A stretch of DNA of 64,000 nt from an endosymbiont of unidentified scaly snail isolate Monju (GTDB lineage Bacteria; Pseudomonadota; Gammaproteobacteria; Chromatiales; Chromatiaceae): NCBI RefSeq assembly GCF_000801295.1, contig NZ_AP012978.1, forward strand, positions 1,302,001 through 1,366,000. The letters run 5' to 3'. The notes beneath the pieces were generated by a model that was not told the DNA's origin, did not search any database, and worked only from the letters and a program-made list of their open reading frames with translations. A program made the position numbers and the translations under genes. Positions within the stretch are counted from its first letter, which is position 1. Each line of letters starts with the position of its first letter. Below, piece by piece: positions 60,249 to 64,000 of this stretch.

Positions 60249-61111
60249 TCATACGGCGACAGATGGGGCAGCCGATGCAGTATTCAAGGACCAGTCATGC
60301 CACACCGGGCACAGCCCGGCAGGCAACTCGGGCAGGCGCCCCAGCTCGATCCAGGGATTTTCAGGGCCGTGGTAGTCCGACCCGGCCGAGGCGAGCAGAC
60401 CGGTGTCGCGCGCGTGCGCGGCCATGGTGAACACCTCGTCGCGGGTGTGGCTGCCGGAAATCACCTCCATGGCTTCGCCGCCAGCCTCGCGGAACTCGCC
60501 GATCAGCCGTCGCAGCTTGCTGCGGGTTAACCCGTAACGCGCCGGGTGGGCAATCACCGCACGCCCACCGGCAGCGCGGATCCAGCCGATCGCCTCGGCA
60601 AGATCCGCCCATTCGCCCGGGACATGCCCCGGCTTGCCGCTCACCAGGAAACGCCTGAACACCTCGCGGGTAGTCTCCGCGTACCCCGCCTCGACCAGGG
60701 CGCGCGCAAAATGGGTGCGGCTGATCAGGCGCCCGTTGGAGTGCGCGCGGGCCTGCTCGAACAACCCAGGGTAACCAGCACGCTCGAGCCGGCGACCGAT
60801 CTCCTCGGCACGCCAGTCGCGAAAACGGCGCAACCCGGCCAGTCCCTGTTGCAACTCGGCATTCCCGGCATCCACCCGCAAGCCGACGATGTGCACCGTG
60901 CGCCCGCCCCAGGTAACCGAGATCTCCACCCCCGGCACAAAACGCATTCCCCGCCGCGCCGCCTCGGCAGCCGCCTCTTCCAGCCCCTCGAGGGTGTCGT
61001 GGTCGGTCAGCGCCAACGCATGCACCCCGGCGGCCTGTGCGCGCGCCACCAGTTCGGCCGCGGCGGAAGGGTACCGTCCGAGGCAGTGGAATGAGTGTGC
61101 AGATCGGGCAT
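60249..61111 (-). pseudogene. PHP-family phosphoesterase (Rnm/YciV-like), one frameshift
   Basis: The family removes 3'-phosphoadenosine 5'-phosphate or acts as a 5'-3' exoribonuclease (RNase AM). The N-terminal metal motif DLHTHSTASDGT starts at the ATG at 61111 but its frame breaks near 61058-61068, where one base seems missing; in the next frame AAELVARAQAAGVHALALTD follows, then HDTLEGLEEAA and the rest of the 280-residue enzyme. yciV-yciO order is as in E. coli. An ATG at 61120 is also in frame with the N-terminus. The gene may be intact in the organism if this is an indel error. Confidence 0.85.
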
Positions 61112-61192
61112 CGTGGACATCCGATCATCATACCAGTGTCGCACCACCAGCGGCGTGCAATTCCTGCCGCCGGAACAAGGAGAAAAAACCGC

Positions 61193-61223
61193 TTGATCTG
61201 GAGTCGACTCCAGGTTCTAGACT
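61193..61223 (+). promoter_or_regulatory. MerR-family promoter with 19-bp spacer (ZntR-type operator)
   Basis: TTGATC (61193-61198) and TAGACT (61218-61223) are separated by 19 bases, the over-long spacing that MerR-type activators correct. Between them is the perfect 16-bp dyad CTGGAGTCGACTCCAG (61198-61213), the core of the ZntR site at E. coli zntA. It is 26 bases upstream of the first gene's ATG. The likely inducer is a divalent metal (Zn, Cd or Pb) or another MerR-family signal. Confidence 0.82.
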
Positions 61224-61249
61224 AGGCTTTTCCACCAGGGAAAACCGCC

Positions 61250-62059
61250 ATGCACAGACGTCAACTCATCGCCCTCCTGGCCTCGGCAGCTCTGCTGCTG
61301 CCAGTCTCCGCGTCAGCTCATGACCCCATCTTCGGCCTGGGGCCCCATGTCTTGTACAAGGGCGGGATCGAGACCGCCCTGGAATGGGAGGCCGCAAAGG
61401 CCGGCCGGGAACGACAACAGGCACTGACCCTCGAGCTGACCCACGGCCTCACCGGCGACTGGGCAGTGGGTCTGGACCTGCCCTATCGCTTCGTGGACGA
61501 CGGCAGCGCGCAGCGACAGGGACTCGGCGACCTGGCCCTGTTCACCAAGTACCGTTTCTGGCGGGCCGATTCGCTGGCCCTGCAACGCTCGGCAGCAGTC
61601 GCCCTGAAGATCGTTACCGACAGTGCCCGGGACGGGCTGGACAAGGGCGCCACCGATGTCATCACCGGCCTGAGCTACGGCCACGAGGGACGGCGCTGGT
61701 ACGGCTGGGCCAGCGCCCGCTATCGCTACAACGGCGAGGACGGCAACGGCCTGAAACGCGGTGACCGCTGGCTGCTGGACCTGGTCGGCGGCATCCGTCC
61801 CGAGCCGCGCGGCTATCTCGAGACCGACACGGTCTGGCTGCTGGAGCTGAACACCGAGATCGGTCGGCATGCGCAACGCCGCGGCATCTCCCTGCCCGAC
61901 ACCGGCGGAACCGAGGTCTTTCTCTCTCCCGGCATCTTCTGGACCTGGCGCAACTTTGCCATCAAGGCCGGTGTCCAGGTTCCTGTATACGAAGATCTCC
62001 ACGGCCATCAGGACCAATCCGACTACCGATTCCGCCTGACCTTCGAAAATCATTTCTGA
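61250..62059 (+). CDS. Putative outer-membrane beta-barrel protein of a metal operon
   Basis: A 269-residue protein with a signal peptide (MHRRQLIALLASAALLLPVS, cut near SAHDP). The mature part, HDPIFGLGPHVLYKGGIETA, is rich in alternating polar/hydrophobic strands (for example LTLELTHGLTGDWAVGLDLP, WYGWASARYRYNGEDG) and ends in Phe (FRLTFENHF), as outer-membrane barrels do. It resembles the uncharacterised 'transporter' family that accompanies metal resistance genes. First gene after the MerR promoter, with an AGGGA ribosome-binding site. Role in metal passage is inference. Confidence 0.65.
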   Translation: MHRRQLIALLASAALLLPVSASAHDPIFGLGPHVLYKGGIETALEWEAAKAGRERQQALTLELTHGLTGDWAVGLDLPYRFVDDGSAQRQGLGDLALFTKYRFWRADSLALQRSAAVALKIVTDSARDGLDKGATDVITGLSYGHEGRRWYGWASARYRYNGEDGNGLKRGDRWLLDLVGGIRPEPRGYLETDTVWLLELNTEIGRHAQRRGISLPDTGGTEVFLSPGIFWTWRNFAIKAGVQVPVYEDLHGHQDQSDYRFRLTFENHF

Positions 62060-62075
62060 GCACGAGGACTCCACC

Positions 62076-62381
62076 ATGCAACGCCTGTCACTCCTCCTGA
62101 TCCTGCTGTTTCTCGCCAGCGCCCCCTGGGCAGGCGGTACCCGCTATGAAATGCGGGTCGATGGCCTGGCCTGTCCCTTCTGCGCCTACGGCGTCGAGAA
62201 AAAACTGAAGGCGATCGAGGGCACCCGCAACATCGAAGTGGACCTCGACCACGGTATCGTGAAGGTCGATATGGCCGAGGGCCGGGAACTCACCGAGGAG
62301 CAGATGCGCCAGCTGTTCCACGACGCCGGCTTTACCTATCGCAGCATGAAGAAACTGCCGATCGCGGAGAATGGGGAATGA
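62076..62381 (+). CDS. Secreted heavy-metal-associated (HMA) domain protein
   Basis: A 101-residue protein with a signal peptide (MQRLSLLLILLFLASAPWAG) and a ferredoxin-like HMA fold. The metal loop is LACPFCAYGVEKKLKAIEGT near residues 32-51, CxxC with Pro-Phe in place of the usual MT/H-C pattern. It is MerP-like in size and location, a periplasmic binder that would pass ions to the MerT-like partner. A GAGGA ribosome-binding site precedes it; it overlaps the next gene by four bases (ATGA). Confidence 0.83.
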   Translation: MQRLSLLLILLFLASAPWAGGTRYEMRVDGLACPFCAYGVEKKLKAIEGTRNIEVDLDHGIVKVDMAEGRELTEEQMRQLFHDAGFTYRSMKKLPIAENGE

Positions 62382-62782
62382 AGGAGCCAGCCATCGATAC
62401 CCGCACCCGGGGGGTCATCTGGCTGACCCTGTTCTCGACCACCGGCACCCTGCTGTGCTGCGCCCTGCCCATCCTGCTGGTGACCCTGGGTCTGGGCGGC
62501 GCTGTGGTCGCCCTGACCGGGGACTTTCCCTTTCTCATCCCCCTGACCCAGCACAAGGCCTGGATCTTCACCCTGTCGGGACTGATGCTGCTGGTCTCCG
62601 GCTGCCTGCTGTATCGACCGGGACAGGAGTGCCCGACCGACCCCGTACTGGGTACAGCCTGTAGTCGGGCGATGCGCTGGAATCGACGCATCCACGGGGT
62701 CTCGGTGGCGATCTGGGGTGTTGGCTTCGTCGCCGCCTACCTGGCCTTGCCGTTGCGGATCTGGCTGGAAGGACGCCCGTGA
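62378..62782 (+). CDS. MerT-like inner-membrane metal transporter
   Basis: A 134-residue protein with about three hydrophobic segments. The first carries CC in TGTLLCCALPILLVTLGLGG, like the CC pair in the first span of MerT. The LYRPGQECPTDPVLGTACSR loop, with two Cys, matches the MerT cytosolic loop. The third span is VSVAIWGVGFVAAYLAL. The ATG overlaps the HMA gene, so the two are a pair. The metal may be Hg(II) or another ion; no merA reductase is in the window, so mercury detoxification is not supported. Confidence 0.72.
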   Translation: MKEPAIDTRTRGVIWLTLFSTTGTLLCCALPILLVTLGLGGAVVALTGDFPFLIPLTQHKAWIFTLSGLMLLVSGCLLYRPGQECPTDPVLGTACSRAMRWNRRIHGVSVAIWGVGFVAAYLALPLRIWLEGRP

Positions 62783-62900
62783 GCCTGCGTATCGAGGTCT
62801 TTACCGTCCCCGGCTGCGCCACCTTTGCCGCGACAGCGCCGACGGCTGCCCCATCATCGAAGACCTGGACCGCCCGGCCCCGCCGAATGCCGCGGACTGA
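62779..62900 (+). pseudogene. Tiny Cys-rich reading frame, possibly frameshifted
   Basis: A GTG overlaps the MerT-like stop (GTGA) and reads VSLRIEVFTVPGCATF. Near 62822-62826 the frame would have to slip back by one (a missing T in TTT) to continue CRDSADGCPIIEDLDRPAPP and end at 62900. The joined 40-residue peptide would have a thioredoxin-like or metal-binding VPGC...C...C pattern. Without the slip the frame runs on into the next gene, which is not credible. It is a weak but suggestive fourth cistron. Confidence 0.35.
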
Positions 62901-62922
62901 TCCCGGTGTTACACTCGATGGC

Positions 62923-63666
62923 ATGAAAAACCTTCCCGTGGACATCGCCTACCTTTACGAGGTGTTTCGGGAGCAGGCGGAGCGTCTGCTCGAGCACCTC
63001 CAGACGCAACCGGCCGGATCACCGGAACAGGATGATCCGCAACGCCTGATCGGCGCCATGAGCGATCTGTGCAAGATCCTGCGCAAGGCCGAGGCATGCC
63101 AGGCCGGCGAATCTACCGAGACGGCCTGCCAGCCCGAGGAACTCGAGGCGCTGGGCAACTTCGGGTTGCAACTGCTCAACGACCTGAGCGAACAGGCCGC
63201 CGAGGCCGAACTGGCCGACTGCGCGCGCGAGCTGGAAAACCTTTGCCTGCCGCTGGGGGTATGGATCGCCCGCCGCGGTGTGGAAATCCAGCAACTGGCG
63301 CCAGTAGTCAACGCGCTGGCCTGGTATGCCAACCAGACACGCTCGCCCGAGGACATGCAAGTGCTCTATGGACTGGCCACCGAGATCGTGGAGGCAGTCA
63401 GCCCGCACCTCAGCGAAATCGGCACCCGTGATCTGCACCCTTGGCGCCTGCTGCTGATCAACCGCGCCATCGTGGCCACCCGTACCCATCGTCCCAGCCT
63501 GATGGAACCGGCCTTCACCGCCATCGTCGAACAACTGCCCGAGGACGCCCCGCGCTTCTTCGCCGAGGGCATGCAGCAGATGGACCGCGTGGGCTATCCC
63601 GAGCCGGTGCGCCAGGTGATGCGCCGCTTCCACGCCCTGTTCAGCGAAAAGCACACCCTGCATTGA
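62923..63666 (+). CDS. Hypothetical helical protein
   Basis: A 247-residue, probably all-helical soluble protein with no signal or membrane span. Sequence such as IAYLYEVFREQAERLLEHL and ALGNFGLQLLNDLSEQAAEA shows amphipathic helices. I do not recognise the family. The ATG at 62923 starts MKNLPVDIAYL; the open frame continues further upstream but into the metal operon and is not supported. It lies four bases before yciB, so it may be co-transcribed with it. Confidence 0.7.
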   Translation: MKNLPVDIAYLYEVFREQAERLLEHLQTQPAGSPEQDDPQRLIGAMSDLCKILRKAEACQAGESTETACQPEELEALGNFGLQLLNDLSEQAAEAELADCARELENLCLPLGVWIARRGVEIQQLAPVVNALAWYANQTRSPEDMQVLYGLATEIVEAVSPHLSEIGTRDLHPWRLLLINRAIVATRTHRPSLMEPAFTAIVEQLPEDAPRFFAEGMQQMDRVGYPEPVRQVMRRFHALFSEKHTLH

Positions 63667-63670
63667 TTTC

Positions 63671-64000
63671 ATGAAACTGCTGTCCGACCTGTTCCCGCTG
63701 CTGCTGTTCTTCATCGCCTACCAGCACTACGACATCTATGTCGCCACTCAGGTCCTGATGGGCACCATGGCGCTGCAACTGGTGGTGATGAAGCTTGCCG
63801 GCCGCCGCATCGAAACCATGCACTGGATCACCCTGGCGCTGGTGCTGGGCTTTGGCGCGCTCACCCTGGGGCTGCGTGACCCTCGTTTCATTATGTGGAA
63901 GCCGACCATCGTCAACTGGCTGTTCGCCGCTGCCCTGCTGTTTTCCGAATGGTTCATGGACAAGGGACTGCTGCGGCGCCTGTTCGAGAAGCTGGGCGAC
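63671..64000 (+). CDS. yciB: YciB/IspZ septation-associated membrane protein, 3' end outside
   Basis: A polytopic inner-membrane protein; YciB (IspZ) is required for normal division and envelope in enteric bacteria. It begins MKLLSDLFPLLLFFIAYQHY, with at least four hydrophobic segments before the window ends (110 codons seen, of about 180). RFIMWKPTIVNWLFAAALL is a family signature. It follows the hypothetical gene by four bases. Confidence 0.93.
   Translation, partial: MKLLSDLFPLLLFFIAYQHYDIYVATQVLMGTMALQLVVMKLAGRRIETMHWITLALVLGFGALTLGLRDPRFIMWKPTIVNWLFAAALLFSEWFMDKGLLRRLFEKLGD

Follow-up and report, generated by a model that had tools for sequence, protein, structure and literature searches.

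Among described systems, the transposon-type mer operon (merR, merT, merP, merA) comes closest to the locus studied here. Its reductase is encoded within the operon, and to our knowledge the route of Hg(II) across the outer membrane toward MerA is unsettled. Partial counterparts are the zntA promoter of E. coli, which is controlled by ZntR and has a 20-bp spacer, the ArsE/ArsG proteins of aromatic arsenical efflux together with the CcdA/DsbD proteins, the NCBIfam fusion selenoprotein MerT_CopZ_Se (NF045683), and the COG4313/FapF channels (4rl8, 5o68). According to passages of one report, COG4313 proteins are 12-stranded channels thought to import hydrophobic molecules (PMC4493636).

The window, a 64,000-nucleotide stretch from the genome of an endosymbiont of a scaly snail (G000), carries a MerR-type promoter followed by three genes and the remnants of two more. 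RB denotes the merR that ends the full operon in relatives, and Trx a thioredoxin-like gene.

61193..61223, plus strand: MerR-type promoter (TTGATC, 19-bp spacer, TAGACT) with the dyad CTGGAGTCGACTCCAG at 61198-61213
61250..62059, plus strand: outer-membrane barrel of the COG4313/Phenol_MetA_deg type, 269 aa, hydrophobic N-terminus (borderline PF13557, AlphaFold2, Foldseek)
62076..62381, plus strand: HMA protein with a CPFC motif and a hydrophobic N-terminus, 101 aa (PF00403 above cut-off)
62378..62782, plus strand: MerT-like inner-membrane protein, 134 aa (alignment of 19 proteins; profile match to classical MerT)
62779..62817, plus strand: remnant, first ~13 codons of a Trx gene (VSLRIEVFTVPGC) (blastx to Trx relatives)
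62814..62900, plus strand: remnant, last codons of an RB-type merR (LRHLCRDSADGCPIIEDLDRP...), in another frame (blastx to RB relatives)

A sequence-only reading of the window had described the trio of barrel, CPFC HMA protein and MerT-like membrane protein, and its open reading frames were confirmed. The reading also held that the locus is not a standard mer, znt or cad operon, which agrees with our results: it is a metal-type operon behind a MerR-type promoter, with products in three compartments. Upstream on the minus strand, a nucleoside bisphosphate phosphatase/RNase RNM-like gene (60249-61110) has an in-frame interruption near its 5' end, at a point where the gene is open in the sister genome G003. 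An Rfam search of 60900-64000 gave no match.

The barrel protein scored 21.8 bits against PF13557, just under the Pfam gathering score of 22.0, while a relative in L059 exceeded it with 39 bits and 30 of 41 family members, the window protein included, matched at E<=0.01. The AlphaFold2 model (pLDDT 92.1) has 12 long strands and one short one, counted by eye, and the best Foldseek matches were FapF (5o68, TM 0.65-0.72) and the COG4313 channel (4rl8, TM 0.67-0.68). The window protein is thus predicted to share the 12-stranded barrel of these channels, from which it differs in its low identity (13-17%) and its metal-gene context. By analogy, neutral mercury species would suit a channel of this type.

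The HMA protein, presumably periplasmic, exceeded the PF00403 cut-off (32.6 bits against 24.8) and lies far below the MerP equivalog cut-off (TIGR02052, 24.8 bits against 92.55). The MerT-like protein likewise scored below MerT (PF02411, 19.9 bits, gathering score 32.9). Nevertheless, the C27 C28 pair in its first hydrophobic segment is invariant in all 19 aligned proteins, as are the later cysteines C85 and C95, which form a second pair spaced C-x9-C in place of the C-x5-C of eight classical MerT proteins. Profile comparison with classical MerT by hhalign gave a probability of 95.6% (E 1.2e-8), and we regard the family as a true yet distant MerT relative. A structure model of the MerT-like protein (pLDDT 63) was left unused. 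No NCBIfam model was reached at its cut-off by the three window proteins. NF045683 is matched by 12 of 19 MerT-like members at E<=0.01, but the window protein scored 15.5 bits (cut-off 375) and the window has separate genes, not a fusion.

To see how the genes are arranged elsewhere, we searched related genomes. At E<=0.001 the barrel was found in 6 of 55 genomes searched, and the MerT-like protein was found in 20 of the order's 195 genomes, counting the window genome in each case; 18 of the latter had E<1e-30, and the G157 and G083 matches (~1e-4) were dropped from later counts. A scan of named genomes gave 442 relatives of the MerT-like protein, the best 80 of which were analyzed as loci; all save about nine are gammaproteobacterial or possibly so, by record titles. 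Neighbors were counted by tblastn, with many loci ending at contig ends. Around the MerT-like gene, these best 80 of 442 loci hold HMA in 77, Trx in 57, RB in 48, the window-type outer-membrane protein (OMP) in 46, CcdA in 31, a second barrel type (OMP2) in 30, another MerR type (RA) in 20 and OMP3 in 5. Mer genes are less frequent in the same loci (merA 15, classical merT 12, merP 11, merC 5). Of the 48 RB loci, 42 match with at least 45% identity and six are distant MerRs at 30-36% (L068, L077, L080, L083, L085, L089); the remnant in G003 (L062) is one of the 48. Eight of the 57 Trx loci have matches all below 42%, four of them in an apparent neighboring arsenic operon. In 17 of the best 80 loci, all six gene types share the operon strand; the count is 15 without L079 and L134, where the CcdA match is distant and far upstream. 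L065, L070 and L094 show the plain order OMP - HMA - MerT-like - Trx - CcdA - RB.

The window genes are the first three of this conserved operon, OMP - HMA - MerT-like - Trx - CcdA/DsbD-like - MerR. We view it as a mer-like operon for metal transport that also encodes outer-membrane and redox components, and the window copy is reduced. The operon is widespread and apparently undescribed: searches of open-licence papers for the operon, its neighbors and its parts gave no account of it in titles, abstract starts and passages, those of PMC8261052, PMC12195606 and PMC6741143 included. With transposon-type mer it shares a CC-pair MerT-like protein, an HMA protein, a MerR-type promoter and a genome-level link to merA. 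In contrast, it contains no reductase, includes an outer-membrane channel, has Trx and CcdA/DsbD-like proteins in its full copies, and places a regulator of another MerR clade last; its MerT-like and HMA proteins also fall below the cut-offs for mer MerT and MerP. The CcdA-like protein passes Pfam DsbD_TM (47.1 bits, cut-off 27.1), and full copies resemble ArsE/ArsG and CcdA/DsbD in having a Trx-like gene beside a DsbD_TM protein, although the operon's proteins are far below the ArsE/ArsG equivalog cut-offs and the window locus keeps a mere scrap of Trx.

The HMA motif is well kept in the operon, with CP[FY]C in 50 of 54 HMA proteins drawn from the best 80 of 442 loci. In L091, L095, L101 and L110, a second HMA gene, in which CDYC or CDFC replaces CPFC/CPYC, lies between the first HMA gene and the MerT-like gene. 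Near the set in L049, L050 and L055 we noted by eye lookalikes of ArsR, a small thioredoxin-like protein, GAPDH and a major-facilitator carrier, which we take to be an ArsJ-like arrangement.

The absence of an adjacent regulator, which the sequence-only reading had taken as a defining trait of the set, is a property of the window copy: no intact regulator gene adjoins the trio, but relatives carry the terminal RB and the window holds its remnant at 62814-62900. In blastx against a small set of 32 RB and 61 Trx proteins, to which the E-values apply, the best Trx match had 71% identity over 14 aa at the place that Trx holds in relatives. The RB remnant gave 57% over 30 aa as its best match by E-value and several of 68-74% over 19 aa; its frame runs from about 62814 to a stop at 62898-62900, and the Trx/RB junction is approximate. 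The start of Trx is therefore joined to the end of RB, indicating that the regulator was deleted in the window lineage. In the sister genome G003, more of the Trx start survives; after a stop come ~48 RB codons (56% identity), in which one of the two RB cysteines is changed (DNA read by eye). By these comparisons, the lineage lost at least Trx and RB, with no room left for CcdA, while keeping the operator. Either one shared deletion was later enlarged or two deletions took place. The window thus offers a clear natural example of regulator-gene loss in an operon whose control site and coding sequence were retained.

The retained promoter has its -35 element TTGATC at 61193-61198 and its -10 element TAGACT at 61218-61223, which gives the 19-bp spacer, and the 16-bp dyad CTGGAGTCGACTCCAG is perfectly symmetric. 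Symmetry by itself is no evidence, since the 64-kb window contains three such perfect 16-base palindromes where simple arithmetic expects ~1. A chance palindrome is ruled out because the letters recur at the same place in relatives. The promoter lies inside a run of 35 bases identical in G003, in a region that is 92% identical overall. The dyad is identical to the core of the E. coli zntA promoter and is present in 5364 of 5426 E. coli genomes; its position 5' of zntA was checked in one E. coli record.

To follow the site in other genomes, as had been proposed, we searched for TTGNNCTGGAGNNNNCTCCAG with at most two mismatches in the 420-base stretch upstream of every operon; 5 of the 80 loci were excluded as contig ends. 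The operator was found at 57 of the 75 testable loci (shuffles 0.0), with G003 (L062) among the 57 and the window itself uncounted. The family consensus over these 57 of 75 loci, drawn from the best 80 of 442, is TTGACCTGGAGTnnACTCCAGGnnnTAGnCT. The -10 element stands at the same distance, reading TA...T in 53 of the 57 sites, and outside promoter regions the pattern occurred 14 times in 713 kb. The operator accompanies RB: it is present in 37 of 40 loci with an RB match of at least 45% identity (L062 remnant included) and in 20 of the remaining 35 testable loci, which suggests that RB is its native reader.

The earlier designation of a ZntR-type promoter holds for the letters of the dyad. It does not hold for control by ZntR, which is ruled out by the 19-bp spacer, against 20 bp in zntA, and by the MerR genes of G000, which are only an ihfA-linked and a mer-linked one, neither of them zntR-like; the genes behind the promoter are also unrelated to zntA. 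Most likely, the zntA-like letters mark RB's own operator with its 19-bp spacer. The RB recognition helix resembles that of ZntR: the helix region, in which we presume the DNA-contacting residues lie, reads VTPDTIRYYEK in ZntR and LSADTLRYYEK in the RB consensus, and the common DT-[IL]RYYEK is consistent with the identical dyad. One RB protein scanned fell below the ZntR, CueR, CadR and MerR cut-offs, and the closest solved relatives by profile were CueR, then the 'regulatory protein' 4ua1 and CadR. RB keeps only a C-x6-C pair and lacks the helix-start Cys of mer-type MerR proteins. Judged by these residues, RB is not a canonical Hg sensor, and its metal may be copper or silver. The conserved operator and the RB clade offer a new case for the choice of metal and DNA by MerR proteins.

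A different MerR is found in L080, L083, L085 and L089, with CC at the helix start and a C-x6-C end. The promoters there have a 20-bp spacer (TTGACT-CTGGAGT...-TATC(C/G)T), so that regulator type and spacer change together.

What controls the window operon at present is a separate question. G000 and G003 have only two MerR_1 genes each; in G000, one adjoins ihfA (by eye) and the other is divergent from merC-merA at 2.26 Mb. The latter is a distant MerR gene of the kind that the sequence-only reading had suggested looking for, and it lies 0.9 Mb from the window operon. It scored 125.7 against the MerR equivalog (cut-off 150.85), and its assignment as mercury-type rests on its cysteines and the adjacent merC and merA. 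We see an even chance that the operator is dead wood, the operon being constitutive or slowly decaying now that its reader is gone. RB is lost in both G000 and G003. The window -35 is TTGATC, where 54 of the 57 sites have a TTGAC/TTGCC-type C at that base. The remote merR also has a helix (VKVETIRYYE) unlike those of RB (LSADTLRYYE, consensus) and ZntR (VTPDTIRYYE). Its own operator differs from the window's in the left half, with an odd-centered dyad and a CTGTAGT-like half-site; the promoter reads TTGAAG-CTATAGTAACTACAGGTTC-TAGACT, of a type CTGTAGTNACTACAG also present in G003, G004 and G006. In the same-genus genome G001 (L045 2237-2997, 5786-6140), the operon's barrel gene is broken into two frames; merA and merP are its neighbors, as is a classical merT, also split. 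The cause is either decay or possibly an assembly error.

Against dead wood stand the promoter identity with G003 and the purifying selection under which the set appears to remain, with dN/dS between G000 and G003 of 0.17 for the barrel, 0.07 for the HMA protein and 0.29 for the MerT-like protein (comparison genes: merA 0.24, merC 0.30, remote merR 0.39). If the loss of RB predates the divergence of G000 and G003, the genes persisted in its absence. Two further observations bear on the remote merR. Right half and -10 of the window promoter match the merC promoter at 16 of 17 bases, and the right half-site GTTCTAGACT is common to both. However, GTTCTAGCCT and GTTCTAGACT also close the merC promoters of two genomes in which no MerT-like gene was found, G004 and G006, so the shared half-site is a weak argument for remote control. 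The remote merR also groups with regulators beside a MerT-like/HMA/barrel set on a Vibrio plasmid and in G087 and G132 (support 91/93, below the tool's 95/80 star). An operator like that of the remote merR was found at the Vibrio plasmid and G087 sets; a search of the G132 set found none. In Synechocystis, passages of one report describe a MerR that acts on a distant merA (PMC6741143), which provides a precedent for remote control by a mercury MerR. From these comparisons, the orphaned site may have come under the control of the remote merR.

In G000, merA lies at 2259251 with merC and the remote merR, not in the operon, and the possibility that a standard mer operon with these genes as its remnants lies just outside the window can be set aside. 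MerC and MerA pass their NCBIfam cut-offs (148.6 against 140 and 541.1 against 454.45). At the order level, merA above cut-off is present in 10 of 18 MerT-like genomes and 9 of 177 others (p=1.6e-7; G127, with a merA fragment only, is counted as lacking it). At the class level, with 369 genomes, 23 of the 34 genomes with a strong MerT-like match (E<1e-40, own genome included) have merA where 6.7 are expected (p=1.5e-10), and with all 46 matches (E<=1e-15) 23 where 9.1 are expected (p=6.5e-7); these tests treat genomes as independent and are thus overstated, the class sample being spread over many families. The arsenite carrier ACR3, the sole control, was not enriched (16 of 34, 12.2 expected, p=0.11; 19 of all 46, 16.5 expected, p=0.25). 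None of the 12 weaker MerT-like genomes has merA above cut-off; several of these genomes are 1.0-1.3 Mb, and they may carry a separate subfamily. MerA, classical merT or merC (at least 40% identity) lies inside 19 of the best 80 of 442 loci, within ~6 kb, one of them being L109 (same-genus G001, L045); counting full-length loci only, mer genes are inside 5 of 32. In 6 of 23 class genomes, merA is on the set's contig at 1.2-15.6 kb. An organomercury-specific role is ruled out: among merA genomes, merB is present in 6 of 23 with the set and 13 of 50, and among all 369 genomes in 6 of 34 with the set (p=0.09).

Given this link, the three genes are probably the retained head of a conserved operon for mercury handling in the cell envelope. 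The earlier suggestion of an import or relay system remains the best reading, and our preferred interpretation is that the set assists mer by capturing and importing mercury. The sequences themselves show which genes make up the set and in what order, the operator, the loss of the genes that followed at the window locus and the statistical association with merA; from these we infer the metal, the transport direction, the electron flow and the present-day control. The barrel would admit neutral or complexed Hg(II) species, the CPFC HMA protein would bind Hg(II) in the periplasm, and the MerT-like protein would pass it from the membrane CC pair to the second Cys pair and on into the cytoplasm for reduction by MerA, whose gene lies 0.9 Mb away beside merR and merC. 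Where the operon is complete, its Trx and CcdA proteins may recharge periplasmic thiols and the terminal MerR may switch the operon through the TTGACCTGGAGTnnACTCCAG site. An outer-membrane channel that shares an operon with HMA and MerT-like genes makes the outer-membrane route of Hg(II) testable. A bolder proposal is that an envelope-spanning system for Hg import and thiol recharging, with its own channel, MerR clade and operator, feeds MerA across many Gammaproteobacteria and that the window operon, having lost its private regulator, has joined the regulon of the remote mercury MerR; this combination is doubtful as a whole. Several facts count against mercury: RB lacks canonical Hg-sensing Cys and has CueR as its best solved relative, 11 of the 34 strong MerT-like genomes have no merA above cut-off, other loci adjoin ars, RND or P-type ATPase lookalikes (by eye), one plasmid copy is beside annotated copper genes, and the known substrates of the barrel family are hydrophobic organic compounds.

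A rival reading, which we consider unlikely, is that the same operon serves copper, silver or gold, with RB as a CueR-like monovalent sensor and the set relaying Cu/Ag. CueR is the best PDB match of the RB profile, and the RB scores for the zinc regulator (118.9) and CueR (114.4) are close, both being below cut-off. Near the set on a plasmid of Vibrio alginolyticus are a P-type ATPase and genes annotated for copper resistance, and L043 and L046 have a P-type-ATPase-like ORF nearby (by eye). Nevertheless, RB mostly has Arg and a C-x6-C spacing where CueR has Ser77 and C-x7-C, and the strong co-occurrence with merA, when arsenic as the sole control is not enriched, argues for mercury.

Even less probable is export, in which Trx, the ArsG/DsbD-like permease and the barrel would expel a hydrophobic organometal with the HMA and MerT-like proteins as feeders. 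Against the ArsG-family permease model, the L065 CcdA-like protein scores 64.5 bits (cut-off 200), and the L064 Trx matches the ArsE-family model with 33.6 (cut-off 62) and the MJ0307 thioredoxin model better, with 54.6 (cut-off 92.75). The association of COG4313 channels with hydrophobic molecules in passages of PMC4493636 would also fit. However, neither ACR3 nor, among merA genomes, merB is enriched, and permease and Trx are gone at the window locus, yet its other genes show low dN/dS. A nutrient-metal import system in the strict sense, to which the three-compartment layout and the lack of an ATPase would be suited, is very improbable in view of the link with merA and because genes switched on by metal through MerR-type regulators usually serve a response to toxicity.

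On two Vibrio plasmids (L164 6000-6671; L166 5141-5671), the MerT-like reading frame is hidden by an overlapping annotated 'heavy metal-associated domain-containing protein', which is in another frame in L164. Next to it lies a GDCCVxC (seleno)protein gene.
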